NCBI RefSeq assembly: GCF_018129965.1
Contig: NZ_JAFCKW010000001.1
Span: 372,001 to 436,000 of the forward strand
Direction of reading: 5' to 3'
Length of the DNA stretch: 64,000 bases
Source: Bradyrhizobium diazoefficiens
Lineage (GTDB): Bacteria > Pseudomonadota > Alphaproteobacteria > Rhizobiales > Xanthobacteraceae
Both the position numbers and the translations under genes were made by a program. Positions 11,195 through 63,113 of the stretch are shown here, one piece after another. The notes beneath the pieces were generated by a model. It ran no database searches. It was given only the letters and a program-made list of their open reading frames with translations, and had not been told where the DNA came from. Within the stretch, counting starts at the first letter, position 1; the number at the start of each line of letters is the position of its first letter.

Positions 11195-11497
11195 CAGGAA
11201 CCCGCCCCACTACGACCCACTGCGACTTATACTGAACTCGATCGACCGGCCCAGGCCGCCCGTCCGAATCCGTATCCCCAAGTCACGGCAAACCATAATC
11301 ACTGCCTCAAACAGCGCCAACTCACGCTTTTTTACCGATTGTTACCCCAAACCTGCCGTATTCGCGCCAAGGCTTAACCAAATTGCGCCGGGTTTCGAGG
11401 CCGTTATCAGCAGCTTTACTGAACCACCAAACCGGTAATTAATGATTTAAAATCAGTTGCTTGAGTACGCAACCCGGATCTGCGCGGGGACAAAAGG

Positions 11498-11533
11498 AAA
11501 GGTCCCGGCAAGCTTCCCGCCGGGACCTTTTTT
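11498..11533 (-). terminator. Rho-independent terminator after ftsZ
   Basis: Arms GGTCCCGGC (11501-11509) and GCCGGGACC (11519-11527) form a perfect 9-bp GC-rich stem with a 9-nt loop. Read on the minus strand, it is followed by TTTCCTTTTG. It lies just beyond the ftsZ stop and would end the long dcw transcript. It also has six Ts on the plus side, so it may work in both directions. Confidence 0.8.
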
Positions 11534-11556
11534 CGTCTGCCTTATTGTAACAATCC

Positions 11557-13362: not shown

Positions 13363-13449
13363 GTTTGCCTCTCGATCACGCGCGCGTGGGTTCGCCCCGG
13401 CCGGCGGCCGCGGGTGTTGGTAAAAGTCGGGAATTGCGGAAATCCGTCA

Positions 13450-15803: not shown

Positions 15804-16152
15804 TGCACGAGCTCGTCAACAGTTTCCCCGCGACACTGCGCGGATCCTGGCGAACGTGACGTCTCGGTCTTGCCGGGCCGGGTCCTGGTCTTCAGCAGAA
15901 GAAGCCTCTCCCGTTCAAAGCGTTCGCTGGAGGTGACATCACCCAAAGCAGCTCACGCGCCGGCGGCCGAAACGCCATATGCGCCACCAGCGTTAACCTT
16001 CGGATGTCCTGGTAAACAAAAGGTAAAGTTCGTTAACGCCGGATGCTTTTTGCCCAGGCGCGTGAGGCATTTATGCCGCGATGAGCGGCATTTTACCGGT
16101 TTTGGGTTCCAAAACGGGCCATTTCGCCCATTTGGCCGTTAACCAGTCCTAA
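15804..16152. promoter_or_regulatory. ddl-ftsQ gap with three GTTAAC motifs
   Basis: The largest gap inside the dcw cluster. No convincing gene is seen; the short minus frame 15758-15946 overlaps ftsQ out of frame and is not protein-like. Three GTTAAC hexamers occur at 15992, 16032 and 16138, in a genome where AT-rich palindromes are scarce. GTTAACC resembles half-sites of the cell-cycle regulator CtrA, which controls ftsQA and ftsZ in Caulobacter. A regulatory role here is inference, because no full TTAA-N7-TTAA site is present. Confidence 0.35.
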
Positions 16153-17145
16153 CTATTTCCGCACACCCCGTCCGGCGAGTTCGACCAGGCCGCGCAGGAA
16201 GTCGACGAATTCGATACCTTCGGCCTTCAACGCCTTGGGGTAGAGCGACGACTTGGTCAGCCCGGGCAGCGTGTTGGTCTCGAGATAAACCAGGCCCTTG
16301 TCCGACACGATGAAGTCCGAGCGGGAATAACCGGTGCAGGACATCGCGCGATGCGCCAGCATCGCCTGCTGCTGGAGCGCAGCGGTGATCTCGGGCGAAA
16401 AACGGCCGGGGCAGATCTCCTGGGTCGACTTCAGGAGATATTTTGCGGCGTAGTCGAAATTGCCCTCGCCCGGAATGATCTCGATTGGCGGCAGCGAGAT
16501 GATCGACCCGTCGGTGCGCTCCAGCACGCCGCAGGTCGCCTCGACGCCGGCGATGTAGGGCTCGATCACGTAATCTTCGTGCTTCGCCGCGTTGCGGACC
16601 GCGACGAGATCCTGCCTTGAATTGACGAAGATCAGGCCGTAGCTCGATCCGTCGCGGGCCGGCTTTGCGATCAGCCGGCCATATTCGGCGAAGGCCTCGT
16701 CAATCCTGTCCAGCGCAATGTTGGCCGGCGGCGTCACGCCGCCGAGCGCTGCGAAATGCTTGGCCGCGATCTTGTCGAAAGCCAGATGCGAGGAGGCCGA
16801 GCCCGATCCGGTGAAGGGCACGCCGCGCGCCTCGCACATCACCTGCAATTCGCCGTTCTCCGCGCGTCCACCATGCAGGCCGAGCACCAGCACGCGGTCT
16901 TCCGCCTTGGCCCGGTCGAGCGCCTGCGCCAGCGGAATGCCGGATGTGCCCGGCTTGAACTCGTCCTCGAACGGGCGGGCATGCTCCAGCAGCTGCTGCG
17001 ACTGCACCACATGCACCTTGTCCTCGACGTCCCACCACCACAGATCGGCCTCGGGCAGCGCCTGATGCAGCGCCTGGGCCGAGGCGACCGAAACCAGACG
17101 TTCGCGGTTGGAGCCGCCGAAGAGGATGGTGATGCGCATGTTCAT
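16153..17145 (-). CDS. ddlB: D-alanine--D-alanine ligase, divergent form
   Basis: ATP-grasp enzyme that makes the D-Ala-D-Ala dipeptide for peptidoglycan. The ATG at 17145 (MNMRITILFGGSNRERLVS) is preferred over a frame-extending ATG at 17163; the protein has 330 residues. The Ddl blocks HGGRAENGELQVMCE, VPFTGSGSASSHLAFDKIAAK and the C-terminal YLETNTLPGLTKSSLYPKA are recognisable. Compared with classical Ddl, the N-terminal GGxSxEHxVS motif is degraded to GGSNRERLVS, and the middle is shortened. Its position between murB and ftsQ supports the role. Confidence 0.85.
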   Translation of the reverse strand: MNMRITILFGGSNRERLVSVASAQALHQALPEADLWWWDVEDKVHVVQSQQLLEHARPFEDEFKPGTSGIPLAQALDRAKAEDRVLVLGLHGGRAENGELQVMCEARGVPFTGSGSASSHLAFDKIAAKHFAALGGVTPPANIALDRIDEAFAEYGRLIAKPARDGSSYGLIFVNSRQDLVAVRNAAKHEDYVIEPYIAGVEATCGVLERTDGSIISLPPIEIIPGEGNFDYAAKYLLKSTQEICPGRFSPEITAALQQQAMLAHRAMSCTGYSRSDFIVSDKGLVYLETNTLPGLTKSSLYPKALKAEGIEFVDFLRGLVELAGRGVRK

Positions 17146-17164
17146 AGCCCCAAATCTCTCCATT

Positions 17165-17292
17165 TCGTCATTCCGGGGCGCGACGAAGTCGCGAGCCCGG
17201 AAGCCATTTATCCACCGTCTCTGTGGCCCGATGGATTCTCAGATGCGCAATTGCGCATCATAGCTCTTGCTTCGCGAGCCCCGGAATGACAC
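17165..17292. repeat. Dispersed palindromic repeat, family 2
   Basis: This element fills the ddlB-murB gap. It begins GTCATTCCGGGGCGCGACG and ends CGAGCCCCGGAATGACAC, so the two ends are inverted copies. Related elements occur at 35570-35673 and, more diverged, at 6946-7021 and 7328-7405. Confidence 0.65.
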
Positions 17293-18213
17293 TCACGCGG
17301 ATACCCCGATCCGCTTGATTTCCCAGTGTAGCTCAATTCCGGAATTGGCCTTCACACGTTCCCGCACGGTCTCGCCAAGCGTCTCGATATCGTGTGCGCT
17401 GGCATCGCCCGTGTTGATGAGGAAATTGCAATGCATCTCCGACACCTGCGCGCCGCCGACGCGCAAGCCGCGGCAGCCGGCGGCATCGACCAGCTTCCAG
17501 GCGGAATGACCCGGCGGATTCTTGAAGGTCGAGCCGCCAGTCTTCTCGCGAATAGGCTGCGCGGTCTCGCGATGGCTTTGCACCTCCGCCATGCGCGCAC
17601 GGATCGCCTCGGCATCCTTGATTTGGCCACGAAAGCGCGCGGACGTGAAGATGATCGAAGGATCGACGCCGCTGCTGCGGTAGACGAATTTCATGTCGGC
17701 ATTGGAGAAGACATGCTTCGTGCCATCGCGCCCGATGCCGGTGGCCTCGATCAGTACGTCCTTCGTCTCGCCACCATTGGCCCCGGCATTCATGCGCAGC
17801 GCGCCGCCGATGGTGCCGGGAATGCCGAAGTAGAATTCCAGCCCGCCGACATTGGCGGATGCGGCGACTTCCGCCACGCGCTTGTCCAGCGCGGCAGCGC
17901 CCGCCGTGACGACATCGCCGCTCGCGCTCGCCTCGCCAAAGGCGCGCGGCGCAAGACGGATCACCACGCCCGCAAGGCCGCCATCACGCACGATCAAGTT
18001 GGAGCCGACGCCGACGGCGTAGACGGGAATGTCGCCGGCGAGATGCGCGAGGAAGTAGGCGAGATCGTCCTCGTCCGCCGGCGTGAACAGCACCTGTGCG
18101 GGACCGCCGACGCGGAACCAGGTGAGCTCGGCGAGCGACTGGTTCGCCAGCAGCCGGCCGCGCAGTTGCGGCATCGCGGCTTTGAGAGCGGGCGTGATGT
18201 CGGGAAAGCTCAT
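17293..18213 (-). CDS. murB: UDP-N-acetylenolpyruvoylglucosamine reductase MurB
   Basis: FAD enzyme that reduces UDP-GlcNAc-enolpyruvate to UDP-MurNAc. The start at 18213 ([16 protein letters not shown]) has an excellent GAGGAGG ribosome site; the longer frame reads into a repeat. The protein has 306 residues. The FAD-binding blocks [34 protein letters not shown] and [18 protein letters not shown] are present. The active-site region [23 protein letters not shown] is also present, with a Ser in GGSTFKNP. This is a type I/IIb-style short MurB. Confidence 0.96.
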
Positions 18214-50952: not shown

Positions 50953-51747
50953 CTACGACCGCGCACCCCATTGCCGCGAGGTCGTGATCATCTGCTCGTG
51001 CTGCTCCTCAACCCGCGTCCAGTCGTTGCCGGAGCACCAGAAGCGGCCAATCGCGCAGGCCTCGACGCGGAGCTTGCCGGAAGCCGTCAACGTCATCCGT
51101 CCGTAATAGGTGCTGCCGCTGGAGCGGCTGTAGATGCTGCCGGTCCAGACGTCGTGCGTCTTCGGCTTCATGTTGACAAGCACGCTCTCGCCCCGGCTCG
51201 ATGCTTCGGTGAGCGCGAAACCGCAAAGTGAACGCCCACAGCGTTCGATTCGAACCGTGCCCTTGGCACCATCGCTCTCCCATTCACCGATCGGCGAGGA
51301 GGCCGATTCCTCGTTGCCGCGCTGCGCGATGGTCGTGCCCTGCTTGATCTCGGGCTCTGGAATGACAGCCGGCGGCTCCATGCGCGGCTCGTCAACCGCA
51401 ACAGCATTCGGCGCTTCGAGTCTTGGCACCGGCGGAGGCGCAACGGGCTGCGACATCGTGGCAGCAAGAGCGGGGGCGGGTATCGGAGCGGCTTGCACTG
51501 GCCTCACCGCAGCAATCGGCTGTGGCGCCTGCACGACCGGCGCCTGCCGCGGGACCGTGTCGACATCATCCGTCCTCCGCAGGCTGCGACCGGAAATCGA
51601 AACACAGGAACTCGACCGGCAATTGCGCGGCGCCTCGACATGGAACCGGTGGCCGCCAACCGAGAATGAGTAGGAACCGGCCTGGGCCGCAGGCACACTC
51701 GCCGTCAGTGCGATCGCCATGCCAAGCGAAGTCACGAGCCGCGTCAT
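50953..51747 (-). CDS. Exported DUF2147-like protein, copy A
   Basis: A 264-residue secreted protein. The signal peptide MTRLVTSLGMAIALTASVPAAQAG is clear, and the start at 51747 has GGGAGGGG upstream. Its layout is an N-terminal module (SYSFSVGGHRFHVEAPRNCR, two Cys), a Pro/Ala-rich linker (about 70-140) and a C-terminal DUF2147-like domain with SPIGEWESDGAKGTVRIERCG, CGFALTEASS and EACAIGRFWCSGNDWTRV. The paralogue at 51943 on the other strand has the same layout. The function is unknown. Confidence 0.85.
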   Translation of the reverse strand: MTRLVTSLGMAIALTASVPAAQAGSYSFSVGGHRFHVEAPRNCRSSSCVSISGRSLRRTDDVDTVPRQAPVVQAPQPIAAVRPVQAAPIPAPALAATMSQPVAPPPVPRLEAPNAVAVDEPRMEPPAVIPEPEIKQGTTIAQRGNEESASSPIGEWESDGAKGTVRIERCGRSLCGFALTEASSRGESVLVNMKPKTHDVWTGSIYSRSSGSTYYGRMTLTASGKLRVEACAIGRFWCSGNDWTRVEEQHEQMITTSRQWGARS

Positions 51748-51942
51748 CGACCCCTCCCTTCTGTGTCGCGACGAGATTACGCGGGATGCCCGGCGGCTGA
51801 ATGTGCGCTGCCTCACCCAGCGGCGGCGGCCCCCTTGTGACGTCCATCACGGAAGGCACGACCGGCACGGCCTAGGGTCGAACCACGCTTCATCCACCAG
51901 CGACTTCAGTCCATCGGGACCACGCATCTTTCGGAGGTTGTC

Positions 51943-52707
51943 ATGAACAAGCTCACCATCGCCGCCACCGCGCTCTTCCTCGCCTCGACCGCCGCAGCCC
52001 ATGCCGGCAATACGATCTCGTTCCAGATCGAAGGCCAGCACATCCGCATCGAGACGCCGCGCAACTGCGCGTCACTCAACTGCGTGACGATCGTCGCACC
52101 GGGCCTGTCCGACAAGCCGATCAAGCTCAACAACATCAACCTCAATGGCCTTGGCGGCTCCAAGGACGATGACGTCGACACCACGCCGGCTCCGGCGACC
52201 ACGACCGCGCAGCCCGCGCCGGCTCCGGTGCAGCAGCAAGCCGTGCAGCAGGCCCCGGTCCAGGCGACTGCGCCGGCCGCCCCCGCGGTTGCTCCTGCGA
52301 CGACGATGGCCGCCGCGCCGTCGTCGGTTGATACGACGATGCAGCCCGCACCCGTTGCTGCGCCCGCTCCGGTCGCGGTCGCTCCTGCTCCGGCCCCGGT
52401 TGCCGCTGCGCCCGTGGCGATGGCCAATTCGCCGATCGGCATCTGGGCGACCGAAGAGAACAAGGGCAATGTCCGTGTCGAGCAGTGCGGCGCCAATCTC
52501 TGCGGCTACGCCGAGAAGACCAACGAGCGCATCCTGATCGACATGAAGCCCGACGGCGCCAAGTGGAGCGGCCGCATCCACGATCCCGACTCCGACCGCA
52601 ATTACGACTCGACGATCGCGATGAAGGGCCCGAATGCGATGCGCGTGCAGGGCTGTGCCTTCGGCGGCATGTTCTGCGGCGGCCAGACCTGGAAGCGCGT
52701 GAGCTGA
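51943..52707 (+). CDS. Exported DUF2147-like protein, copy B
   Basis: A 254-residue secreted protein starting MNKLTIAATALFLASTAAAHAG (signal peptide). It repeats the design of the divergent neighbour: FQIEGQHIRIETPRNCASLNC at the start of the mature part, a long Ala/Pro/Val linker (about 75-160) and a C-terminal domain with SPIGIWATEENKGNVRVEQCG, LCGYAEKTNERILIDMKPDG and GCAFGGMFCGGQTWKRV. Conserved Cys pairs in both suggest disulfides in the periplasm. The 195-bp gap between the two is a shared divergent promoter. Confidence 0.87.
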   Translation: MNKLTIAATALFLASTAAAHAGNTISFQIEGQHIRIETPRNCASLNCVTIVAPGLSDKPIKLNNINLNGLGGSKDDDVDTTPAPATTTAQPAPAPVQQQAVQQAPVQATAPAAPAVAPATTMAAAPSSVDTTMQPAPVAAPAPVAVAPAPAPVAAAPVAMANSPIGIWATEENKGNVRVEQCGANLCGYAEKTNERILIDMKPDGAKWSGRIHDPDSDRNYDSTIAMKGPNAMRVQGCAFGGMFCGGQTWKRVS

Positions 52708-53050: not shown

Positions 53051-54475
53051 ATGGTGGCCTGGCGCCGCTTCGTCCTTGCGCTTCCGATGCTGGCGCTGCC
53101 GCTGGCCGGCGCGGACAATGCATGCGCATCCGATGCGATCGAGCTTGCTCAGGCACAGCCACAGGCCCAGCCCGCGCCCGCCCCCTCGCCGGCGCCATCG
53201 GCCTCCCCGACACCGGCCGCCGACGCACAACCCGCCGCCGTCGAGCCGATCGGCAACGTCGCGACCGTGACCGGGATCGCGACCGTGATCCGCGACAGGA
53301 ACTCGTATCCGCTGCGCGTGCGCGACGACATCTATCTCAACGACGTCGTGCAGACCTCGTCGAACTCCTCGCTCGGCATCACCTTCAACGACGCGACCAC
53401 ATTCAACCTCTCGGCCAGTTCGAAGATCACCATCGACAATTACGTCTATGAGGACGGCGGCAAGCAGAACGCGGGCCTTTTCGACATCGGCAAGGGCACA
53501 GTCGCATTCGTCGCCGCGGCGGTGGCGAAGACCGGCGACATGAAGATCACGACGCCGACGGCGACGCTCGGAATCCGCGGCACCACCGGCGTCGTCGACG
53601 TGCCGGAAGGCGCGGCCGCGACCCGCACCAACAACGTCAACATCAAGCTTTATCCCGACGCGGACGGGCGGGTCGGGCATATCGACGTCAACGACCGCAC
53701 CAGCGGCACGCGGCTCGGTGCGCTGACGCAGGCCGCGAGCGGATTTGCGATCCGGCCTGGCGCCGGCGGCCCCGGTGGCATGCGCTACGCAGCCGTGCCG
53801 ATCACGATTCCCGCACAGCAGATCGCGCGCGACCGCAGCTTCGTCAGCCAGGTGCATCTGGCGCAGACCACGGGCCGGCAGATCGTCACCGAGCAGCGCG
53901 ACTTCCGCCGCGCCAACCCCGGCGCGAGCAGCCGCATCCCGCGTCCGCTTCAGCCGCCGCAGCAACAACAATTGCGTCCGAACACCACGCCGGGCCAGCA
54001 GCCGAACGGCCAGCCGGGCCAGAACAACCGTCCGGGTCAGCAGCAGCCGGGCACGCCGGGCCGCCAGGGTGCGCAGCCGCCGCAGCGGCAAGGCAAAGGA
54101 CAAGGACAAGGCGGCGCCGTCCAGCCGGGCAACCCGCGCGCGGGTCAGGGACAGCAGCAACAGCAGAAGGGTAACGGTCCGCCGGCAGGCGCACCGCGGG
54201 CCGGTCAAGGCACCCAGCCCAACGGCGCGCCCCAAATCCAGCAGCCGCCGACCAATGGACCGAGGCAATCGCAGCCTGGAGACGTCGCGCCGCCACAGCC
54301 TCAAACACCCCGCACGGGATTGCAGCCCGGCCAGCCGGCCCTGCCGCCCGCGGCTCGGCAGCCAGGCGGCGCGCAGCGCCAGGGCGGATTGCAGCAGCGC
54401 CTGCCCGGCACGCAACGTCCCGCGGCGCCGCGCAAACCGGCGCCGGCCTTGAAAGACAAGAAAGAGCGCAGGTAG
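53051..54475 (+). CDS. FecR-domain exported protein with P/Q/G-rich tail
   Basis: A 474-residue protein from ATG 53051 (GTG 53042 also possible). A signal peptide (about 1-27, ACASDAIELAQA) is followed by a Pro/Ala linker and a FecR domain (about 70-190). The FecR domain has VATVTGIATVIRDRNSYPLR, GDTV-like LNDVVQTSSNSSLGITFNDA and LGIRGTTGVVDVPEG. The C-terminal 200 residues are extremely rich in Gln, Pro, Gly and Arg and look disordered and very basic. FecR domains occur in periplasmic signalling and surface proteins. No sigma factor or TonB receptor is adjacent. It ends 120 bp before the candidate peptide cluster. Confidence 0.8.
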   Translation: MVAWRRFVLALPMLALPLAGADNACASDAIELAQAQPQAQPAPAPSPAPSASPTPAADAQPAAVEPIGNVATVTGIATVIRDRNSYPLRVRDDIYLNDVVQTSSNSSLGITFNDATTFNLSASSKITIDNYVYEDGGKQNAGLFDIGKGTVAFVAAAVAKTGDMKITTPTATLGIRGTTGVVDVPEGAAATRTNNVNIKLYPDADGRVGHIDVNDRTSGTRLGALTQAASGFAIRPGAGGPGGMRYAAVPITIPAQQIARDRSFVSQVHLAQTTGRQIVTEQRDFRRANPGASSRIPRPLQPPQQQQLRPNTTPGQQPNGQPGQNNRPGQQQPGTPGRQGAQPPQRQGKGQGQGGAVQPGNPRAGQGQQQQQKGNGPPAGAPRAGQGTQPNGAPQIQQPPTNGPRQSQPGDVAPPQPQTPRTGLQPGQPALPPAARQPGGAQRQGGLQQRLPGTQRPAAPRKPAPALKDKKERR

Positions 54476-54595
54476 CGCCGCCGCTTTGGCGTTGCCTGTC
54501 GGCCGAGCGCGCGCTATCGCAACGGCGCCTCCGCGACCGGACGACCGGGCGTGTGAACGGCACCCTATTCGAGCCATCGAAGTCAGGCCGATCCC

Positions 54596-55780
54596 TTGGA
54601 ACGCTTACCGCCGTCAGCTCCCCGGTCCTCGATTGATCTGCTTGGCCGAATTCTGGACGTCCGGCCCTCGGAGTCCGCGTCGATGGCGCTGCGCCTCGCG
54701 TTTTTTGCGCCGTCATTTTCCTGGCAGGAACTGATCGACTTCGCGAACGCCCAGCACATTCTTCCGGCCGTCGTCTGGTCGCTGCGCAGCCGCGGACTCC
54801 TGCTGCCGCTGCCGGCCACCATGAATTCCAGGACTCGCGAAACCCACGTCACGCAGCGGCTGACCCAGGCCTATGACCGGCACCTGGCTCTGCAGCACGA
54901 CCTTCGCGATCAGTTGCTCGCAATCCTCGCCGCCTTCAACGAGCGGGGGATCGTACCACTCCTGATCAAGGGCGCCCGGCATCTGCTGACGCAGGAGAGC
55001 TGGTGGGTTGCGCGTGGGATGCGCGACCTCGACATCATGGTCCGGCCCGAAAAGGCCGAGCGCGCCAGGGATATCCTGACCGAACTTGGCTACAAGCCGG
55101 ACTATGAACCGGAGCTCGAAGGACAACATCATCTGCCGCAGATGCGACGCGAGGGGTGGAACGGAGCCATCGAGATTCATATTGCCCCGCTCGCCTTCAA
55201 CGGCGCCCATCTGATGAGTGCCGGCGAGGCCTGGGATATGTCGCAGGCCGGAGAGGTCGAAGGACGACAATTCCGGGTCCTGCCGGCTGCCTGGCACGTC
55301 CTCCACGGCCTGCTGCATCATCAAGTCGTCGATTGTGGATACCGGCGGCGTGTGCTCGCGCTGAAGGGATTGTGGGAGTTTTCGATCGGAACCAACGCGC
55401 TCACCGCACAGGAGATCGCGGAGATCGCCGCGCACATGGAGCGGCGGGGCAGCCTTGAGGTTCTCGCGGACTGGCTTGTCCAGGCGCATCTGGTGTTCGC
55501 GCTGCCGCTGCCCGACACCCTCGACATCTCCAACGCGGCACGCGCCAGCGCGCAAGCGACGCTGGCACGCGCGGATTGGCCCTATCCGCTGCGCAGGGTG
55601 TTCTACATCGCGGATCAGTTGCGCTTTGCCTTCAGTCCCGAGACGCTTGCGCTGCGCTATCAATACCGCGGCAACAATTCGAAGCTCGACATGGCGATCC
55701 GCCATCTCGGCTTCCTCGCCCGGAAATACCGCACCGGCGCGCTCGACAGGATTTTCGGCAGTAAGGATCGTCTTTCCTGA
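54596..55780 (+). CDS. Nucleotidyltransferase-fold protein of peptide-modification type
   Basis: A 394-residue soluble protein of the uncharacterised nucleotidyltransferase family (NTP_transf_5). The motifs are PLLIKGARHLLTQ (LLKG block), then RGMRDLDIMVRPEKAERARDIL with the paired acidic residues, LGYKPDYEPELEGQHHLPQM and the strand GAIEIHIAPLAF. The HGLLHHQVVDCGYRRRVLAL helix is also typical. Such proteins recur in ribosomal-peptide clusters, including lasso-peptide clusters, with PqqD-like and HprK-like proteins. Here it is convergent with the seven-gene minus-strand cluster. Its reaction is unknown; nucleotidylation of the peptide or a sugar is inference. Confidence 0.82.
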   Translation: MERLPPSAPRSSIDLLGRILDVRPSESASMALRLAFFAPSFSWQELIDFANAQHILPAVVWSLRSRGLLLPLPATMNSRTRETHVTQRLTQAYDRHLALQHDLRDQLLAILAAFNERGIVPLLIKGARHLLTQESWWVARGMRDLDIMVRPEKAERARDILTELGYKPDYEPELEGQHHLPQMRREGWNGAIEIHIAPLAFNGAHLMSAGEAWDMSQAGEVEGRQFRVLPAAWHVLHGLLHHQVVDCGYRRRVLALKGLWEFSIGTNALTAQEIAEIAAHMERRGSLEVLADWLVQAHLVFALPLPDTLDISNAARASAQATLARADWPYPLRRVFYIADQLRFAFSPETLALRYQYRGNNSKLDMAIRHLGFLARKYRTGALDRIFGSKDRLS

Positions 55781-55837
55781 AGCAAGCCGAGCCGTGTTTG
55801 ACGAACCGGTCTCCGATTCGCTCGAAACCGCTTCAGT

Positions 55838-56983
55838 CTATGCAGACGATGCCCTCGCCTCGGCAAGGCGCGCCTTTAGTTCGCAAGCTTGGGGATCGGC
55901 CGACGCAAGCGCAGCGCGGCGATACCAGATCGCGGCCTCGCGAAACCGTCCGGCCCGGAAATGGCACAGTGCGAGCGCCTCCGGCGCGTCGCGCGAGAAC
56001 AGCAGCTTGTCGTAGGAGTTCAGTGGATCGACAAAGTTGTCGGGGTCGATCCCGGCCAGCCGCTCGAGGATCGGACGCGCTTCCTCCTCATGCCCGGCCT
56101 CGATTGCCAGCTTGGCCCTGTTCCACTGCATCACGAGATTGCCGGGAAACAGCCGCAGGGCTTCGTCCAGGATCTCCTGCACCGGCTCGCCGCGCCGGTG
56201 CAGCGCCTCGATCAGGGCGGCAAACGGCAAACTGCAGCTCTCGTCGGATTGTCTTTCATGTTCGGTCCGCGCTGCCACCACGCCACGCCGCCAGGCCGCG
56301 ATCGCCCCATCCTCGTCACCCGCCAGTTCCAGGGTTTCTCCCAGGTGCCACCAGCAATAGGAGCGGTCGGCATTGTCGGCGAGATAGGCGCGCAGCAGGC
56401 CGAGATTGCGTGGCACCTTGTGTTCCTGGCTTCCCTCGTAGCCGATGTGGCGGAGCGCGATGTCGCAAACCCCGACGTCGCGGCGATCGGTCTTCTGCAG
56501 ATCGGCGATGGACGCGCGAACGCTCTCGTGAATGACGCCGCGAAACCGGATCGAGGGATGGTTGCGAAACAGCCGGAGCTCGGGACAGGGCGTCCATCCA
56601 TCGCGCAATGAAAGTTGGAGACGCCAGGCCAGCTTGCTGTCGTCCCCAATGGCGCGCGTCCAGATCGCCGGATCGGAGACCTGGAGCCGCTCATCGGCAT
56701 CGATATAGAGAATCCAGTCGCCGTGCGCCCGCTCGATCGCAAAGTTTCGAGCCGCGGAAAAATCGTCGCACCATGCGAAGGAATGCAATGACACGGGGTA
56801 GCGCGCCGCCCGCGCGACCGTGTCATCCCGAGATCCCGTATCGACGACGACGATCTCGTCGACGACGCCGACCAGAGAGGCGAGGCAATCGTTGATGAAA
56901 CCCGATTCGTCACGAACGATCAGAGTCGCGGACACACGCGGCGTGGGCGCGTCGAGACGTGTTCGACTGACAATCGGCTCCAA
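55838..56983 (-). CDS. Family 2 glycosyltransferase with TPR-like C-terminus
   Basis: A 381-residue cytoplasmic GT-A enzyme. The N-terminal domain has VSATLIVRDESGFINDCLASL, DEIVVVDTGSRDDTVARAA, DDFSAARNFAIERAHGDW and the metal-binding ILYIDADERL. The C-terminal half (about 205-375) is TPR-like, with WWHLGETLELAGDEDGAIAAW. This architecture resembles SunS, which glycosylates a peptide, and also general GT2/TPR proteins. It is the last gene of the minus-strand cluster, 138 bp after the first peptide gene. Confidence 0.88.
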   Translation of the reverse strand: MEPIVSRTRLDAPTPRVSATLIVRDESGFINDCLASLVGVVDEIVVVDTGSRDDTVARAARYPVSLHSFAWCDDFSAARNFAIERAHGDWILYIDADERLQVSDPAIWTRAIGDDSKLAWRLQLSLRDGWTPCPELRLFRNHPSIRFRGVIHESVRASIADLQKTDRRDVGVCDIALRHIGYEGSQEHKVPRNLGLLRAYLADNADRSYCWWHLGETLELAGDEDGAIAAWRRGVVAARTEHERQSDESCSLPFAALIEALHRRGEPVQEILDEALRLFPGNLVMQWNRAKLAIEAGHEEEARPILERLAGIDPDNFVDPLNSYDKLLFSRDAPEALALCHFRAGRFREAAIWYRRAALASADPQACELKARLAEARASSA

Positions 56984-57121
56984 AGGTCGCGCTCGGGCTC
57001 AACAAAACGCCATCGAAGCCCGGGAAGACCCCGGACTGCATCTCATATTTATCCCCACCGCAGAAATGTCCACAGCAGGGCTATGGGGAGCGCGGCCTGT
57101 ATCTGGCCTTTGCCGTGTGAC

Positions 57122-57319
57122 TCAGGTCGGGGTCCTGATTCCCGACCCCGTGCCGTTGACGGCAGCCACCGCCTTGGAAATGCTCAATCCGTCCATGGCG
57201 AACGAGGCGACAATCGGTGCCACGAAGGCGGTTCCGGTGAGCAGACGGCTCAATGTTTTACGCTTGCTGTCGTCCAGACCGGCGACGGAGTTTTCAATAT
57301 TCGAGTTTTTTTCAGTCAT
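57122..57319 (-). CDS. Candidate modified-peptide precursor 1 (65 aa)
   Basis: A 65-residue peptide starting MTEKNSNIENSVAGLDD, with a GGGAAG ribosome site before the ATG. Residues 18-35 are SKRKTLSRLLTGTAFVAP, identical in the neighbour. A short hydrophobic run and DGLSISKAVA follow, then the 13-residue tail AVNGTGSGIRTPT. The middle looks like a Sec/Tat-type signal sequence with a KR motif and an A-x-A cleavage site (A50-V-A52). The tail has Ser/Thr next to Gly and Pro, suited to O-glycosylation or phosphorylation. The last codons also form a 7-bp hairpin (CGGGGTC...GACCCCG). It is one of two paralogues in the cluster. Confidence 0.75.
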   Translation of the reverse strand: MTEKNSNIENSVAGLDDSKRKTLSRLLTGTAFVAPIVASFAMDGLSISKAVAAVNGTGSGIRTPT

Positions 57320-57379
57320 TTCATTCACTTCCCAACTAACCAACACACAAAGAGATTTACGCCGCTGAGGCGAAATTCC

Positions 57380-57406
57380 GGCTTTTATACATGAAATTCA
57401 AGTGCT
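57380..57406 (-). promoter_or_regulatory. Conserved upstream element of peptide gene 1
   Basis: On the minus strand: AGCACTTGAATTT, 7 variable nt, then AAAAGCC. The same blocks with the same spacing lie upstream of peptide gene 2 at nearly the same distance from the ATG (60 versus 61 nt). TTGAAT could be a -35 box, with GAATTT 17 nt further on as -10. The surrounding sequence is AT-rich. Confidence 0.6.
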
Positions 57407-57425
57407 TGCTATTTAACGAGCACCG

Positions 57426-57620
57426 TCAAGCTGGAGAGATGCCGGACCCGGTCCCGTTTGTTACAGCAAAGGCCTTGGAAATGACCAGTCCATCCATGGC
57501 AAAGGAGGCAACGACAGGTGCAACGAAGGCTGTGCCGGTGAGGAGCCGGGACAGCGTTTTCCGCTTGCTCTCATCCAGACCGGTGACGGCGCTTTCAACG
57601 TTCGAATTCTGATCAGTCAT
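57426..57620 (-). CDS. Candidate modified-peptide precursor 2 (64 aa)
   Basis: A 64-residue paralogue of precursor 1: by my count 49 of the first 61 residues are identical. It starts MTDQNSNVESAVTGLDE, shares the invariant SKRKTLSRLLTGTAFVAP block, has DGLVISKAFA with an A-x-A site (A50-F-A52) and ends VTNGTGSGISPA. The shared tail core is NGTGSGI; the last residues differ (SPA versus RTPT). The start at 57620 is chosen by homology with the other copy; the frame upstream is not similar. It follows the HprK-like gene by 114 bp and has its own copy of the promoter-like element. Confidence 0.75.
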   Translation of the reverse strand: MTDQNSNVESAVTGLDESKRKTLSRLLTGTAFVAPVVASFAMDGLVISKAFAVTNGTGSGISPA

Positions 57621-57681
57621 TATGGCAGTATCCAACAACATCGACGCGCACGAACCGACAATAGGCTGGCTGCGACATTGT

Positions 57682-57708
57682 GGCTTTTGTGACCAAAATT
57701 CAAGTGCT
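57682..57708 (-). promoter_or_regulatory. Conserved upstream element of peptide gene 2
   Basis: On the minus strand: AGCACTTGAATTT, 7 variable nt, then AAAAGCC, matching the element at 57380-57406 in 20 of 20 flanking positions. TTGAAT plus CAATGT at 17-nt spacing is a possible promoter. Part of it lies just before the HprK-like stop codon. Confidence 0.6.
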
Positions 57709-57734
57709 GGTTCCAACATTCAACGCATTATCGG

Positions 57735-58565
57735 TTACGAAGTTTGGTGGTCGCAGGCCCGATCGATGCAACGGAGCGCCTGGTCGTGGTCGCCGAGCGA
57801 CAGATCGTAGCCATTAGCAGCGGAGCATAGCGATACGATTGCCCCGATTGCGGCGCCGCGGGCGTCCTCCCGCAATCCGATTTCCTGCATGATTTCCTGG
57901 ACCAGCCACATCGTCGGCACCGGCCGGATCGAGGAATAGCCTCCATGATTCGCCCGCAGCAGGATGATGAGATCGGCCGGCCCTTCCTCGATACGCCAAT
58001 CGAGCCCCAGCAACCTTGGGTCGAGATTGTAGATGCGCTGATCGAGATGGTCGGTCAGGTAGCCGAGTTGAGGCAGGATATCCACGAGCTCGGGCACCAG
58101 CCGAATCGAGCCCTCCTTGACGCGAAGCCCCCGCGGCCGCGCCACGACCCGTCCGTGCCGAATGAAGACGTTTTCATCGCCCTCGATCCGGTAACCGTGC
58201 AGAAGCAGCCGCAGGGTCAGCGTGGTCTTGCCGGTGCCCTTGTCCCCGACCAACAGCAGCCGGCGGTCGCCTCGGCGCAGGCAAGCCGCGTGCAGCACCG
58301 GCGCGCCAGGCAGATCGTCGATCGACAGTTGGAAGACGTGGCCCTGGACCATTTCGACCACGCCCCGCACGTTGAATTTTTCACCGAGCAGATCGTCGCC
58401 GTGGAAGATCCTGTAGGCCAGGCCGTGGCGATCGACGCGTATCGTCGAATCGATCGCAGACGCTCCCGCGATGTCCGGATCGCATGCGAGAAACTGCAAC
58501 GCGTCCAGCACGGCGTCATCTTCCGATTGCAACGAGATACGGCGTCGCAACGTCCGCGTGATCAC
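57735..58565 (-). CDS. HprK-like kinase of a peptide-modification system
   Basis: A protein of 276 residues from a GTG whose bases overlap the PqqD-like stop (GTGA), the usual sign of coupling; an ATG at 58613 would overlap more. The P-loop LLLVGDKGTGKTTLTLRLLLHG lies at about 104-125, preceded by GAPVLHAACLRRGDRRL. A later DENVFIRHGRVVARPRGLRV is the region after the acidic Mg-binding pair. It resembles the C-terminal kinase domain of HPr kinase but has no HPr gene beside it. Related kinases phosphorylate a serine of a lasso peptide (paeninodin). It matches what is called HprK-related kinase A in family collections, from memory. Confidence 0.8.
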   Translation of the reverse strand: MITRTLRRRISLQSEDDAVLDALQFLACDPDIAGASAIDSTIRVDRHGLAYRIFHGDDLLGEKFNVRGVVEMVQGHVFQLSIDDLPGAPVLHAACLRRGDRRLLLVGDKGTGKTTLTLRLLLHGYRIEGDENVFIRHGRVVARPRGLRVKEGSIRLVPELVDILPQLGYLTDHLDQRIYNLDPRLLGLDWRIEEGPADLIILLRANHGGYSSIRPVPTMWLVQEIMQEIGLREDARGAAIGAIVSLCSAANGYDLSLGDHDQALRCIDRACDHQTS

Positions 58566-58831
58566 TTCGGGGTGCAGAGAAGCACCCCTTCGCGGATCAG
58601 CGAATCCAGACAATTCGACACGTCATCGTGCATCCTCGGCGCCAGTTCGAAGGCCGTCGCCACTCTCGAAACGATATCGCTCTTGTCCCGCCGGCCATCG
58701 CAGAATTCAAAGATGACGGCGGCCGTCTTGTTCAGATAGTGAACCTTGTCGCGGGCCGTCTGGTAGACGATGTATCCGTCCGGCACTTCGTGAACCTCGA
58801 GGCCCTCGGCGCGGTCGATCAAGTCAGCCAT
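58562..58831 (-). CDS. PqqD-like peptide-binding protein
   Basis: An 89-residue protein of the PqqD/RiPP recognition element fold. It begins MADLIDRAEGLEVHEVPDG, then YIVYQTARDKVHYLNKTAAVIFEFCDG, where the LN-x-TA-x-IFEFCDG helix is the PqqD hallmark, followed by the winged-helix part SDIVSRVATAFELAP and DDVSNCLDSLIREGVL. Proteins of this fold bind leader peptides and present them to modifying enzymes. It overlaps both neighbours: 8 bp with the upstream glycosyltransferase gene and 4 bp with the kinase gene, so the three are translated together. Confidence 0.88.
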   Translation of the reverse strand: MADLIDRAEGLEVHEVPDGYIVYQTARDKVHYLNKTAAVIFEFCDGRRDKSDIVSRVATAFELAPRMHDDVSNCLDSLIREGVLLCTPK

Positions 58832-60137
58832 TCATCAATTCCTCAAATCGCAGGTTGGACGCAGCGGGAGCGAGCGACCCGGCGGCCATCTGTATCGCAA
58901 AATTGCCGACGACCCCCGCCCACCGGGCACGATCATAATCCGACCGTACCCGGTTTCGTGCGTTGTCGGCAATTCGCCGCGCCAGCGCTCCCTCGGTTAA
59001 AATCGCATGGCAGGCGGCGCCGAACTGCTCGGCTCCATCGGCCAGCAGAATATCGCGTCCGTTCCTGAAACGAAGCCCTGCGGCGCCGAGCCGCGTGGAG
59101 ACTGACGGAACGCCGTGCGCGGCCGCCTCGAGCAGCTTGATCCTGGTCCCGCCACCAGCGCGCAGCGGGGCAATGGCAAGGGCGGCTCCGGCGTACAGCG
59201 GCGCGATTTCGGGCACGGGCCCGGTGACCAATATCCCGCGCCGGGTGGAGAGGCGACCGAGACGCGCGGACGCGCCACCCCCGGCAATCACCAAACGAAG
59301 CCCGTCAGGCAGGCCCCTGACCAGCCCGGGCCATACGCGGGACACGAACCACTCCACCGCATCAGCATTCGGTTCGTATCCGAGCGTCCCGACGAAGAGC
59401 ACGGTGCGAGCCCGCTGCCGGACCGCAACGGCGCGACGGCGCGCCTGCGCGGTCACGACATTGGGCACGACCAGGACGCGTTCGTGACCGGCCTCGCACG
59501 CGAGCGACGCGCAGTCGCCGCGTGATGCTGCGAAAAGAACATCGAATTGGGCCAGCGATTGTCGCGCAAGCGTGCGGAATGCATCGGCCTCGCATGACGC
59601 CCATTCCGCCTGCAACACCGAGCCTCTTCGGCGATGCATCAACCCGATCGATTGCTGTGTCGCGATGTCGTTCTCATCGCAATCCAGGATCAGGCGCGTG
59701 CCATCGCTCCGCGATCCGACGGCGCGCGACAGAGCTGCCAGATAGAGCCGTGACAGGTGCACGACCGCATAGCGGGCCGCGCCGATCCAGGAGCGCAATT
59801 CCTCGAGGATCGGCTCGGTGATCCCGGCCGCCAGCGACGGCTGGCCATAGTGACGAAATGCGTCCAGACGGGCTTGCGGATCCCGCAAGCGGGCCACCAG
59901 CCCGAAGTGAGACCCGGCGCGCGGCGCGATGATGACGTGACGCACGCAGCGCGCCGTCACGAAGGAGGTCACCTCCGCAGCCTGTCCGGCAACGGGGACG
60001 ACGACAAGATCGATGTCGAAATGCCGGGAGTAGGCCTCGAGAAAAAAGCCGACGCGCATGGCAAGGCCGTTGCCCTCTTCAGCGGGCATGACCGGCGATA
60101 TGAACAGCAGCTTCTTCCGAGGCAGTGCCGGACTCAT
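58824..60137 (-). CDS. Family 4 glycosyltransferase
   Basis: A 437-residue GT-B enzyme. The N-terminal domain has KLLFISPVMPAEEGNGLAMRVGFFLEAYSRHF. The C-terminal domain has TVLFVGTLGYEPNADAVEWFV, LRLVIAGGGASARLGRL, VTGPVPEIAPLYAGAALAIAPL and the donor-binding GGGTRIKLLEAAAHGVPSVST, as in glycosyl_trans_1/4 proteins. Sugar and acceptor are not known. Its stop overlaps the PqqD-like start, and it begins 15 bp after the MNN1-like gene, so it belongs to the operon. Confidence 0.9.
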   Translation of the reverse strand: MSPALPRKKLLFISPVMPAEEGNGLAMRVGFFLEAYSRHFDIDLVVVPVAGQAAEVTSFVTARCVRHVIIAPRAGSHFGLVARLRDPQARLDAFRHYGQPSLAAGITEPILEELRSWIGAARYAVVHLSRLYLAALSRAVGSRSDGTRLILDCDENDIATQQSIGLMHRRRGSVLQAEWASCEADAFRTLARQSLAQFDVLFAASRGDCASLACEAGHERVLVVPNVVTAQARRRAVAVRQRARTVLFVGTLGYEPNADAVEWFVSRVWPGLVRGLPDGLRLVIAGGGASARLGRLSTRRGILVTGPVPEIAPLYAGAALAIAPLRAGGGTRIKLLEAAAHGVPSVSTRLGAAGLRFRNGRDILLADGAEQFGAACHAILTEGALARRIADNARNRVRSDYDRARWAGVVGNFAIQMAAGSLAPAASNLRFEELMNG

Positions 60138-60152
60138 CGTTGCGAACCCCAG

Positions 60153-61676
60153 TCACTCGATCCGGCGATAATTCTTGGGATCGATCGCGCGCGGGTGAAC
60201 ACTCCGATCGCGCGTCGCCTGCAGGCGTACATCCCGCGCGTCGGACAAACCATCGGCCCACGACCTGAGTGCGGCGATCCAGCCCTGGTCGATCGCCGCG
60301 CCTTCGAGGTGTTCCAGGAGACGCTCGGGAACGTCGTCGAAACTGCGATTGAGAAATGACAAGGCTGCGCGCAACTGCTCTTCGACCAGCGCATCGCGCC
60401 CGCCGCGCAGCAGACCCGAGTCCAGAAGGGCGTCCAGGGCGACGGAGGACGACCGCGCGACACGGACTTGATCCGCATGGGGCCAACTCAGCGCATCCTT
60501 GCGGGACACCAGCCTTGCATCAAAAGCGGGCGACGGGCGCGACGCCCCCGCCCAGGAGCCATCGGCGCAGGGAAACAGTTCGACGGTCAGCTGCGTCGCC
60601 GAAAAGAACTGCAGGACATTGCCTTGCGCCTTTTCCACCACGGCCCAATGCTGCTCGTATTCGGCGCGGCCCTCGCCGACGCGGCCGCCGGATAGCAGCT
60701 CGAGCGTTCTCTGCGGCACGACCGACGTCGAATAGTTGAACCATCTGTCGGCAATCAGCAGGCCTTCCGCATCGGACGAGGCCCTGGACCGCGCCGGTGG
60801 ATGGAACGCCACGCCGGTCCATTTGCTGCGCAGTTCGGCGAGAGCTTCATCGCAGGAGCCGTTGAATCGCTCGTCGCAAACCGGACGATTGGCGCCCATG
60901 AGATTCCATTTCGACAGAGTGCGATGATGCACGAACGGCTCGCCGAACGGGTCGCGCTGGATCATGTCGTGGTCGAACGGATAGGGCCGATGTTCGATCA
61001 GACCAACGTCGAGACCAGCCAGTTCAGCGGCGATCAGAAACGTATCCTTGTCGCCATGGAGGAAGCCGTAGACGTCTTCCCAGTGCTCGTTCAAGAGCAT
61101 CGCAAGATCGAGGAGCGGCCAGCATCGCCGCTTGTCCAGGGCGATGATGCTGGACTCGAAGCTCACGCAATCCCTCGGCGGCAGGCCGACCTTGCTCCAT
61201 ATTCCGTTCTCTTTGGTGAGATCGAGATTGTCCGGCCAGAACAGGGCCGGTGCCGAACGATAAACGTCCCAATCGAACACGGTTTCGGGATCGACCAGCG
61301 GGATGGTGTCGGCATCCAGAAACAGGACTTCCTGAAACCTGCTGTTCGCGATCGCATAAGGCTTCAGGGGCCATCCACCCGAGACGCGCGCCGGGTATAG
61401 CGAGATCATCTGCTCGGCATCGACGACCTCGACGCCCAGCTCTTCCAGGATCAGTTGCATCCCCTCGCTGATCTCGCGGCGTCCCAGGTGCCAGACCTGG
61501 ATGGGCAGGCTGCAACCAAGCTTTCGGCGCAGCGTCCAGATCAGCATCCAGGCGCATGTGAAGTAGCGCAGACCACCCGCACAGGTGACGATTCCGCGCC
61601 CGGCGAAACGACCCTCGGGACAAATGGCTGGAGCGGCCTGCCGGCGCCGCAGTTCGGCAGCAAGAATGCTTTGCAT
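60153..61676 (-). CDS. MNN1-like (GT71) putative mannosyltransferase
   Basis: A 507-residue protein. The first 300 residues match the MNN1/GT71 family known mainly from fungi: GRGIVTCAGGLRYFTCAWML, LPIQVWHLGRREIS, LKPYAIANSRFQEVLFLDADTIPLVDP with the DxD metal site, and WPDNLDLTKENGIW. The domain also has SFESSIIALDKRRCWPLLDLA and GDKDTFLIAAEL. The last 200 residues are unlike the fungal enzymes and may bind the peptide. It is the first gene of the minus-strand operon and divergent from an Anp1-like gene. Confidence 0.78.
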   Translation of the reverse strand: MQSILAAELRRRQAAPAICPEGRFAGRGIVTCAGGLRYFTCAWMLIWTLRRKLGCSLPIQVWHLGRREISEGMQLILEELGVEVVDAEQMISLYPARVSGGWPLKPYAIANSRFQEVLFLDADTIPLVDPETVFDWDVYRSAPALFWPDNLDLTKENGIWSKVGLPPRDCVSFESSIIALDKRRCWPLLDLAMLLNEHWEDVYGFLHGDKDTFLIAAELAGLDVGLIEHRPYPFDHDMIQRDPFGEPFVHHRTLSKWNLMGANRPVCDERFNGSCDEALAELRSKWTGVAFHPPARSRASSDAEGLLIADRWFNYSTSVVPQRTLELLSGGRVGEGRAEYEQHWAVVEKAQGNVLQFFSATQLTVELFPCADGSWAGASRPSPAFDARLVSRKDALSWPHADQVRVARSSSVALDALLDSGLLRGGRDALVEEQLRAALSFLNRSFDDVPERLLEHLEGAAIDQGWIAALRSWADGLSDARDVRLQATRDRSVHPRAIDPKNYRRIE

Positions 61677-61742
61677 AGCAATGATTTCGCGGCACTATCG
61701 TCATATGAAGTGTTTGTCGTCAATCCCGTTCTGGCCGGTGCA

Positions 61743-62507
61743 ATGAACCAGCGTTCCGCCACTGTTCTCGTCCTCACACCCGTCAAGACCGCCTCCCGAT
61801 TTCTCGACGGCTATTTCGCCGGCCTCGAATCCCTGACCTATCCGCGTCACCTGCTGTCGCTCGGCATTCTCGAAGGCGACAGCCTCGACGACACCGCCAT
61901 CCAGATCGAACAGCGCCTGACGCGCTGCGCGGCCGATTTCAACCGCGTCACCTATGTCCACAAAGACTTCAATTTCCAGATTCCGGCATCAATGCCCCGG
62001 TACATGGATATCTTCCAGCCGCAGCGACGCGCCATCCTGGCGAAGGCACGCAACACACTGCTGTTTCGGGCGCTGGGCGACGAGGATTGGGTGCTGTGGC
62101 TGGACGTCGACGTCGAGGAATATCCCGCCGACATCATCGAGCGCCTGCTGGCCGTGGGGCGCGACATCGTCCATCCGAACTGCGTGACCGACTATGGCGG
62201 CCCCAGCTTCGATCGCAACGCCTGGAGCGATGGCGGTCGCCTGCATATGAGCGACATGCGCGGCCAGGGCCTGGTCAGGCTCGAATCCGTCGGGGGAACG
62301 ATGCTGCTGGTACGGGCCGACCGCCATCGGGAGGGATTGGTGTTTCCGCCGTTTTTCTATGGCGCCCGCAGCCGCTGGATCAGGGATCCGCATCCGCTGA
62401 CCGGCGCGGCGAGCGGGGAAATCGAAACCGAAGGCCTCGCCATGATGGCCAAGGACATGGGCATCGAATGCTGGGGCCTTCCCGACCTGGAGATCCTGCA
62501 CAAGTGA
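61743..62507 (+). CDS. Anp1-like (GT62) putative mannosyltransferase
   Basis: A 254-residue GT-A protein. It begins with ATVLVLTPVKTASRFLDGYF, then LTYPRHLLSLGILEGDSLDD, RAILAKARNTLLFRALGDED and WVLWLDVDVEEYPADIIERLL with the DxD site, and continues IVHPNCVTDYGGPSFDRNAW. These are the ordered blocks of Anp1/Van1/Mnn9, the fungal alpha-1,6-mannan polymerase subunits. The ATG at 61743 lacks a strong ribosome site; the frame is open further upstream, overlapping the divergent gene. The C-terminus DLEILHK matches the family end. No signal anchor is seen, so it acts in the cytoplasm. Confidence 0.78.
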   Translation: MNQRSATVLVLTPVKTASRFLDGYFAGLESLTYPRHLLSLGILEGDSLDDTAIQIEQRLTRCAADFNRVTYVHKDFNFQIPASMPRYMDIFQPQRRAILAKARNTLLFRALGDEDWVLWLDVDVEEYPADIIERLLAVGRDIVHPNCVTDYGGPSFDRNAWSDGGRLHMSDMRGQGLVRLESVGGTMLLVRADRHREGLVFPPFFYGARSRWIRDPHPLTGAASGEIETEGLAMMAKDMGIECWGLPDLEILHK

Positions 62508-62546
62508 GGCGCTGCCCGCATTGACCTGCAGCGACGATCCACCGAC

Positions 62547-63113
62547 TCACGCCTCCCCGCGCAGCCACGCCTTCATCTTCTGCAACAGACCATGCGGCAG
62601 CTCATCGACGGAGCCCGGTTCGGCCGGTGTCAGCGTCTGCAGGACGGCATCGATATCCTCGGTGGCGAGCGGCGGCGTAATGTCGGCGTCGGTAGGCGCG
62701 AGGCCGGCGGCCGCGAGCGCGATCGGACCGATCTGCGTCAGGAACACGCGCTCGTACTCACGCGACAACCGTGCGAGCGCGTCCTCGAGCGGTAGCCAGT
62801 CGACGGCCTTGATGTCGTTCATCAGCTTGCGGACCGGCCCGCCCTCGGCCTCCATGCGCCAGAAATGCACGACCTTGGCGCGGCCGCCCGACTGATAGAC
62901 GAGCGTGCCCAGAAATTCGTGGATGGCGACCTCGTGGCCGGTCTCTTCCAGCACCTCGCGGTGCGCGGCCTGCTTCGGCGTTTCGCCGTCGTCGAGCTTG
63001 CCCTTGGGCAAGACCCATTCGTTGCGCTTGCGCTGGCGCACGATGGCGATCAGCGGCGGCGCGCCACGCCGCAACACAATCCCACCCGCCGCCATCACCG
63101 GCGCCCGCGCCAT
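62547..63113 (-). CDS. Nudix hydrolase
   Basis: A 188-residue protein from ATG 63113 (a TTG at 63146 would add 11 residues). The Nudix box is complete: GKLDDGETPKQAAHREVLEETGHEV, split here by eye as G-x5-E-x7-REVLEETGH. It starts APVMAAGGIVLRRGAPPLIAIVRQ and continues VVHFWRMEAEGGP, like bacterial diadenosine polyphosphate or nucleotide hydrolases. The C-terminus (about 120-188) extends beyond the domain. The substrate is unknown. It lies 66 bp downstream of psd on the same strand. Confidence 0.9.
   Translation of the reverse strand: MARAPVMAAGGIVLRRGAPPLIAIVRQRKRNEWVLPKGKLDDGETPKQAAHREVLEETGHEVAIHEFLGTLVYQSGGRAKVVHFWRMEAEGGPVRKLMNDIKAVDWLPLEDALARLSREYERVFLTQIGPIALAAAGLAPTDADITPPLATEDIDAVLQTLTPAEPGSVDELPHGLLQKMKAWLRGEA

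Follow-up and report, generated by a model that had tools for sequence, protein, structure and literature searches.

A gene cluster in a 64,000-nucleotide stretch of the Bradyrhizobium diazoefficiens genome (contig NZ_JAFCKW010000001.1, positions 372,001 to 436,000; hereafter the window, to which all coordinates refer unless a locus is named) probably directs the synthesis of small glycosylated ribosomal peptides. Modification of these ribosomally synthesized and post-translationally modified peptides (RiPPs) would be guided by a RiPP recognition element (RRE), with an Asn residue as the likeliest first acceptor of sugar. The observations are (i) the gene content of the cluster, (ii) its conservation in related loci, (iii) a leader motif common to the precursors, (iv) an Asn locked in position behind this motif, (v) fold matches of the encoded proteins and (vi) insertion of the cluster as an accessory island. 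The original prediction, made from the DNA sequence alone, had proposed a glycosylated ribosomal-peptide system in which the two peptides are phosphorylated or nucleotidylated and then glycosylated. It was largely supported, as the peptides are conserved together with a PqqD-like protein and glycosyltransferases (GTs) and carry an RRE-type motif, but an obligatory phosphorylation or nucleotidylation found no support.

Genetic organization of the cluster

The cluster comprises nine genes (TPR, tetratricopeptide repeat; aa, amino acids), listed here with the two Asn codons of interest:

54596–55780, plus strand: NTP_transf_5-family protein of nucleotidyltransferase fold (Pfam PF14907, 84 bits)
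55838–56983, minus strand: GT2-TPR glycosyltransferase, SunS/ThuS-like (NCBIfam SunS, 63 bits, below the cut-off of 350; PDB sequence and Foldseek matches)
57122–57319, minus strand: peptide 1, 65 aa, with motif FVAPIVASFAM, A-V-A site and NGTG core
57155–57157, minus strand: Asn55 codon of peptide 1, 13 residues past the motif
57426–57620, minus strand: peptide 2, 64 aa, with motif FVAPVVASFAM, A-F-A site and NGTG core
57456–57458, minus strand: Asn55 codon of peptide 2, position-locked
57735–58565, minus strand: HprK-like kinase (HprK_rel_A, 50 bits, cut-off 200; PDB profile match to HPr kinase 1ko7, 1.5e-5)
58562–58831, minus strand: PqqD-like protein, putative discrete RRE (Pfam PqqD, 40.2 bits, cut-off 23.4; profile match to TfuB1, 6jx3)
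58824–60137, minus strand: GT4 glycosyltransferase, stp1/TIGR03087-like (Pfam, above cut-off)
60153–61676, minus strand: Mannosyl_trans3 (MNN1-like) glycosyltransferase (Pfam PF11051, 94.6 bits)
61743–62507, plus strand: Anp1-family glycosyltransferase, divergently transcribed (Pfam PF03452, 163 bits)

Reading of the open reading frames (ORFs) against the sequence of the window confirmed all nine genes, their strands and their spacing as originally described: a minus-strand run with gaps of 15, −8, −4, 114, 106 and 138 bp (from the MNN1-like gene to GT2-TPR), flanked by the NTP_transf_5 and Anp1 genes. These distances are valid with a GTG start of the HprK-like gene at 58565, TTG at 58613 being an alternative open start; for the Anp1 gene, ATG at 61743 is favoured over a long upstream extension. 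The proposed identities of the NTP_transf_5, GT2 plus TPR, PqqD, GT4, Mannosyl_trans3 and Anp1 proteins held, all of them scoring above the Pfam cut-offs. Only the kinase proved to be a weak relative of its proposed family (HprK_rel_A, 50.1 bits; Pfam Hpr_kinase_C, 13.9 bits, cut-off 33.3). Neither peptide matched any family above cut-off, peptide 1 giving only a chance-level match to DUF677 (E 0.1). Nonsynonymous divergence between the two peptide genes (dN 0.14) is far below synonymous divergence (dS 1.15), as expected under purifying selection, and both therefore look like selected genes.

A Pfam scan of the nine genes detected no SpI-like leader peptidase, MsbA-like transporter, or polysaccharide flippase or polymerase family, and family scans of the same genes found no macrolactam cyclase/synthetase (C) or B2 protease, in agreement with the initial statement that a lasso protease, a cyclase and an exporter are missing.

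Conservation of the cluster

Besides the cluster of the window, 11 further clusters of the same clade (clade 1: window, L020, L021, L023, L024, L028, L032, L033, L068, L069, L070 and L071; L029, L031 and L030 lie on the same contigs as L021, L023 and L024, respectively) and eight distant clusters with GT2-TPR in common (clade 2: L132–L139, new from the GT2-TPR search and read as 20-kb loci) were found. All 12 clade 1 clusters contain PqqD and peptide genes, the latter numbering one to seven (seven in tandem in L068, four in L023, three in L069). GT2-TPR is present in 11 of them (missing in L033), as are HprK and NTP_transf_5 (both missing in L032), while MNN1-like and Anp1 genes occur in 10 each and GT4 is missing in some (e.g. 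L020 and L024). Extra sugar genes encode a GT10 (L023, L070 and L071) and, beside L020, a GT90 and a sulfotransferase.

L020 (positions 9763–17459 of that locus) is a second cluster within the window's own genome; its peptide has a Thr-rich, mucin-like core and is accompanied by the GT90 and sulfotransferase genes.

Besides that of the window, eight clade 1 clusters were originally retrieved by peptide queries, and the presence of peptides there is partly circular; the peptide-free queries are therefore the fair tests. The PqqD query, run as a scan of genome contigs, returned six loci (three on contigs already in the set), all with a peptide. The GT2-TPR query returned 14 clusters from 13 of the 397 genomes of the order (six clusters already found), and a peptide was present in 13 of them. 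In the eight new clusters a short [FY]xxPx[VIM] peptide adjoins GT2-TPR in seven cases and PqqD is present in six. Conversely, every strong peptide match has PqqD and GT neighbours. Both neighbourhood checks thus came out as the original prediction had anticipated.

An ATP-grasp-like protein is encoded near GT2-TPR in seven of the eight clade 2 loci (L132–L138), compared to none of the 12 clade 1 loci. Three of these proteins were tested against Pfam and one exceeded the ATP-grasp cut-off; they are possible alternative tailoring enzymes of clade 2.

Precursor peptides and the position-locked Asn

All precursors counted carry the sequence [FY]xxPx[VIM]x[ST][FYM], which appears RRE-binding-like. 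A similar motif, [Y/W]xxPx[L/V/I/F/A], is described for the leaders of lasso peptides and linear polyphosphorylated peptides (LPPs) in the available sections of PMC13381572. In clade 1 the motif is preceded by (K/R)R and mostly followed by A-x-A, and the core is short and variable. In itself, the clade 1 leader seems to be similar to signal peptides of the (K/R)R kind, in many cases complete with A-x-A, which may account for the lack of an exporter and a protease. Most clade 2 peptides have motif and Asn but no (K/R)R stretch.

In two precursors (L021:9637–10071 and L028:11227–11664) the core continues into a fused Peptidase_S74 (endosialidase chaperone) domain, scoring 33 and 32 bits in Pfam, respectively, which follows leader and core and begins about where the window peptides end. 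S74 domains are known for self-cleavage, which, if it occurs here, would yield a product similar to the window peptides. The peptide of L032 extends into a long C-terminal portion that Pfam does not confidently assign to any family.

Such features might also belong to small proteins that are secreted by means of Tat-like signal peptides and glycosylated incidentally, the cluster serving surface polysaccharide synthesis and its PqqD/kinase/nucleotidyltransferase set regulating this island or attaching the glycan to the envelope. This explanation would fit the combination of (K/R)R leader and A-x-A seen in most of clade 1, the GT-rich island, the two S74 fusions and the extended L032 peptide. 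We nevertheless judge it improbable, given the lack of any flippase or polymerase family in the Pfam scan of the nine genes and the retention of motif and Asn in most clade 2 peptides devoid of (K/R)R.

The position of the Asn was compared using one peptide per cluster, leaving out L033 (no GT2-TPR) and L136 (no peptide). In 17 of the 18 GT2-TPR clusters with a peptide, an Asn lies 13–15 residues behind the motif, and in all 18 it lies within 13–17 residues (17 in L021). Within-tail shuffling (20,000 rounds) placed an Asn at 13–15 in a mean of 4.0 and a maximum of 11 of the 18 clusters, a figure that describes conservation and is not an independent P value, because the clusters share descent. 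For a comparison of 14 residue types at offsets 11–17, 22 of the 31 known peptides were used, with a single tandem copy each for L068 and L069 and without L033. All 22 have N there, compared to 12 with S, 12 with T, 5 with Y and 1 with C; none of the 13 types other than N was common to all 22.

The context of this Asn differs between the clades. In clade 1 it mostly forms part of N-x-S/T (20 of 24 peptides, L033 included), two L023 cores (NLPV and NIPA) having no S/T after it. In six of the seven clade 2 peptides it appears as GN, no more than two residues from the C terminus, and it is kept in L138, whose tail contains no S, T or C. The canonical N-x-S/T sequon was dropped as a general rule, because clade 2 peptides have GN without S/T. 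The cores of L020 and L024 are Thr/Pro-rich. The core of the L139 peptide (L139:10650–10925) contains a 12-residue unit with several Asn, repeated near-exactly three times.

The C-terminal location in clade 2, together with the ATP-grasp-like proteins of that clade, would be compatible with the Asn being a sugar-independent site of backbone processing, e.g. cleavage or cyclisation beside it. This is highly improbable, as the Asn follows GT2-TPR: the 12 clade 1 loci are without an ATP-grasp-like protein, yet 11 have the Asn, and all of these have GT2-TPR.

Natural deletions

Two clade 1 clusters from metagenome-assembled genomes (MAGs) lack part of the gene set. L033 keeps the nucleotidyltransferase, HprK, PqqD and GT4 genes but lacks GT2-TPR (the best GT2 of this MAG scores 51 bits, compared to 512 bits for the true homolog in L032), and its peptide has no Asn at the locked offset. 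L032 keeps the peptide, PqqD, GT2-TPR, GT4, Anp1 and the Asn, whereas no HprK was detected in its MAG at E ≤ 0.01. These patterns tie the Asn to the glycosyltransferase and not to the kinase (n = 1 each). The claim that phosphorylation or nucleotidylation must precede glycosylation is not supported in view of L032 and of the clade 2 loci, only one of which (L133) has an HprK-like gene among the eight stretches of 20 kb; the kinase and nucleotidyltransferase look accessory.

A different role for these two enzymes is envisaged if the peptides are O-glycosylated or carry glycosyl-phosphate: the kinase would act on the Ser/Thr of the NGT/NGS core, NTP_transf_5 would add a sugar to the phosphate and the GTs would extend it, the Asn serving for recognition only. 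The presence of HprK and nucleotidyltransferase genes in 11 of 12 clade 1 clusters favours such a route, as do the S/T at +2 of the Asn in clade 1, the Thr-rich cores of L020 and L024, and the precedents of PsmK/PsmN and LppK (described in the available parts of PMC9266682 and PMC13381572, respectively). We regard it as rather unlikely, since the Asn is kept where no kinase was detected (L032 and six of seven peptide-bearing clade 2 clusters) and also in the S/T-free tail of L138 and the two L023 cores.

Fold predictions for the glycosyltransferase and the PqqD-like protein

The PDB sequences nearest to GT2-TPR are those of GmaR (1.3e-24) and SunS (1.3e-12). Its structural model (predicted local distance difference test score, pLDDT, 91.5) gave SunS/ThuS as the top six Foldseek matches (4e-20 to 3e-18), followed by a drop to 1e-8; the best of them, to SunS, reached 4e-20 over 384 columns. 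TM scores were 0.55–0.65, with a root mean square deviation (rmsd) of 12–14 Å in full-length alignments and about 5 Å in shorter ones. GT2-TPR is proposed to be the initiating peptide glycosyltransferase.

A profile of the PqqD-like protein matched TfuB1 (6jx3) with an E of 0.0013. The profile was required, as phmmer with the single sequence returned unrelated chains alone. The best Foldseek matches of its model (pLDDT 86.9) were TbiB1–leader complexes (E 1.1e-3, probability 1.00, TM 0.68–0.79). In an alignment of eight sequences N34 is invariant and residue 70 is always acidic; by inspection, these may correspond to N33 and D70 of LppB, which contact the leader according to the available sections of PMC13381572.

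Proposed pathway

Each precursor combines a leader bearing the motif [FY]xxPx[VIM]x[ST][FYM] with a short spacer, which in most of clade 1 terminates in A-x-A, and a core that is short and variable. In the pathway considered most probable, the PqqD-like RRE, judged from its fold and the motif, would grip the leader in the cytoplasm and offer the core to GT2-TPR. This SunS-like enzyme would add the first sugar, most likely to the Asn about 14 residues behind the motif, and the GT4, MNN1-like and Anp1-like enzymes would lengthen the glycan. By analogy with LPPs and pseudomycoidin, the HprK-like kinase and NTP_transf_5 might contribute an accessory or optional phosphate or phospho-sugar. Export and cleavage in clade 1 may run via the host Tat/Sec systems and signal peptidase I. 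Provided that the products are glycosylated RiPPs, Asn is somewhat favoured as first acceptor, the alternative being Ser/Thr.

A more specific version, put forward tentatively and held to be less likely than not, is that the RRE directs the SunS-like GT2 to N-glycosylate the single position-locked Asn in the cytoplasm, that eukaryote-like MNN1/Anp1-type enzymes (in sister clusters also GT10, GT90 and sulfotransferase) build an elaborate glycan, and that the clade 1 leader doubles as an export signal. If true, this would be an N-glycosylation route outside the oligosaccharyltransferases and GT41, in which the N-x-S/T sequon is not always required.

Several points weigh against glycosylated peptides with Asn as acceptor. 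The acceptors of SunS and GmaR are Cys or Ser/Thr, and no GT2 enzyme with Asn as its acceptor is known to us. The full-length rmsd to SunS is such that the domain arrangement must differ, and no Foldseek match of the PqqD-like protein has an E below 0.001. As contigs from MAGs, L033 and L032 could be incomplete or wrongly binned. Within the 20 kb read, PqqD is missing from L135 and L136, and L136 also has no peptide. The 18 clusters compared are related by descent, and L133, L135, L136 and L137 all belong to a single genus. The Thr/Pro-rich cores of L020 and L024 point to O-glycosylation, the S/T at +2 could be the true acceptor in clade 1, and the Asn might serve for recognition or processing.

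Relation to known systems

The closest known family found are the LPPs, represented by the lpp cluster of Paenibacillus alginolyticus. According to the available sections of PMC13381572, they likewise combine a discrete RRE, an HprK-like kinase and an NTP transferase (here in the window and in 11 of 12 clade 1 clusters), have between one and three precursors in which the leader is conserved and the core varies, and show a YxxPxV leader motif (here F/YxxPxV), signal-peptidase-like processing and a patchy distribution. Those LPPs, by contrast, are reported chiefly from Bacillota, together with an SpI peptidase and an MsbA-like transporter, neither of which is among the nine genes. Their leader consensus, YxxPxVLxHQxIxFETxxS, shares only [FY]xxPxV with the peptides described here. 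Furthermore, the same sections report neither a SunS-like GT2-TPR nor a locked Asn; here the SunS-like GT is the shared enzyme, and kinase and nucleotidyltransferase may be missing. LPP cores are marked by polyphosphorylated Ser. LppK phosphorylates Ser3 of the core and LppN was silent in a heterologous host (PMC13381572), while PsmN is held to add a hexose to phospho-Ser (PMC9266682), both as given in the available parts of these sources; by analogy, NTP_transf_5 may have a PsmN/LppN-like role. Pseudomycoidin/paeninodin-type lasso peptides also share the RRE, HprK-like kinase and nucleotidyltransferase, which in their case add phosphate and hexose (PMC9266682, available part), but lasso peptides require the macrolactam synthetase (C) and B2 protease that are absent from the nine genes.

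The overall fold predicted for GT2-TPR is that of the glycocin enzymes. SunS and ThuS are the glycosyltransferases of the glycocins sublancin and thurandacin. GT2-TPR remains well below the glycocin family cut-off (TIGR04195, 63.1 of 350 bits). Because the window peptides have no Cys, a SunS-type S-linkage is excluded and nested disulfides are impossible; unlike in glycocins, an RRE is present.

The HPr-rel-A system (TIGR04352/TIGR04353) resembles the cluster in its kinase, PqqD-like protein and nucleotidyltransferase and in a neighbouring RR-leader protein. Its leader motif differs, and the TIGR04352-positive loci L077–L082 gave no GT2-TPR, MNN1-like or Anp1-like match. Assignment to the standard system was rejected, the window proteins scoring 50.1 of 200 bits (TIGR04352) and 22.1 of 35 bits (TIGR04353).

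Around other HprK genes (16 loci), an RR leader followed up by a hydrophobic stretch is encoded by 14 of the 63 small ORFs that lie no more than 1.5 kb from the kinase, compared to 8 of 220 elsewhere. Proteins of this kind come from L073, L074, L077–L082, L084 and L086, some with TIGR04352 above cut-off; the second ORF of L080 and the ORF of L083 look spurious, and L072, L075, L076, L085 and L087 yielded none. These proteins are possible substrates of the HPr-rel-A system, which suggests that it acts on exported RR-leader proteins and provides a candidate substrate for it.

With an RRE-fold protein encoded beside short precursors that share a conserved leader motif, the cluster is regarded as a new form of RRE-dependent RiPP system, and there would be a credible case for a new class if the Asn link were shown. 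Among the open-licence PMC matches listed, no title or abstract describes a peptide family with PqqD and a SunS-like GT2-TPR, or a locked Asn. The cluster unites two RiPP logics that, to our knowledge, are otherwise described apart, namely RRE-guided kinase/nucleotidyltransferase peptides and SunS-type glycopeptides, and singles out one residue, the locked Asn. Were this the acceptor, leader-directed cytoplasmic N-glycosylation and bacterial uses for MNN1/Anp1-type enzymes would follow.

Accessory island and distribution

The cluster lies between a FecR-domain gene (Pfam) and a NUDIX gene:

54471–62545, no strand: accessory island (empty sites; G+C content)

The G+C content of the island is 62.9%, compared to 65.9% for the remainder of the window. 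Twenty loci were listed from 38 matching genomes of 40, the window's own and 19 others from the same genus (L141–L159). In 16 of these 19 the FecR and NUDIX genes abut directly, forming an empty site at whose junction the window coordinates jump from 54,445–54,485 to 62,542–62,553. In L146 and L147 the NUDIX gene instead adjoins sequence located at 52.7 kb of the window, and L159 was uninformative. The cluster is thus an accessory insertion of about 8.1 kb. A search of the window detected no tRNA gene, and the two island edges have no exact repeat of at least 9 bp in common.

The peptide family is rare. It was found in 1 of 195 genomes of the genus (the window's own) and in 5 of 397 of the order (own genome counted in). 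At the family level, matches with E ≤ 0.1 came from 10 of 198 genomes, three of which have a real peptide, and among 385 genomes of the class the own genome stood alone, two further weak matches not being counted. The weak family-level matches L008–L014 and L019 were rejected, as none contains the motif when read in frame; those of L009 and L011 resemble, by eye, ArsR-type regulators. One of the weak class-level matches, L090, has no such peptide. The other, L089:1441–1680, comes from a different genome of this class (G998); it encodes a peptide that has an RR leader, YVAPVI and a tail rich in Cys and Pro but lacks the full motif.

Viral contigs gave 40 pattern matches, none of them a relative. 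In plasmids, relatives of the Anp1-like protein were found in six records (Azospirillum and Gemmobacter) and GT2 matches in 140 records.

Two further features of the window were noted. A short element at 4615–4777 recurs in the FecR–NUDIX spacer of L153, L156 and L157. Two adjacent, divergently read genes (50953–51816 and 51943–52707) encode proteins with similar C-terminal domains and are, by eye, apparent paralogues.

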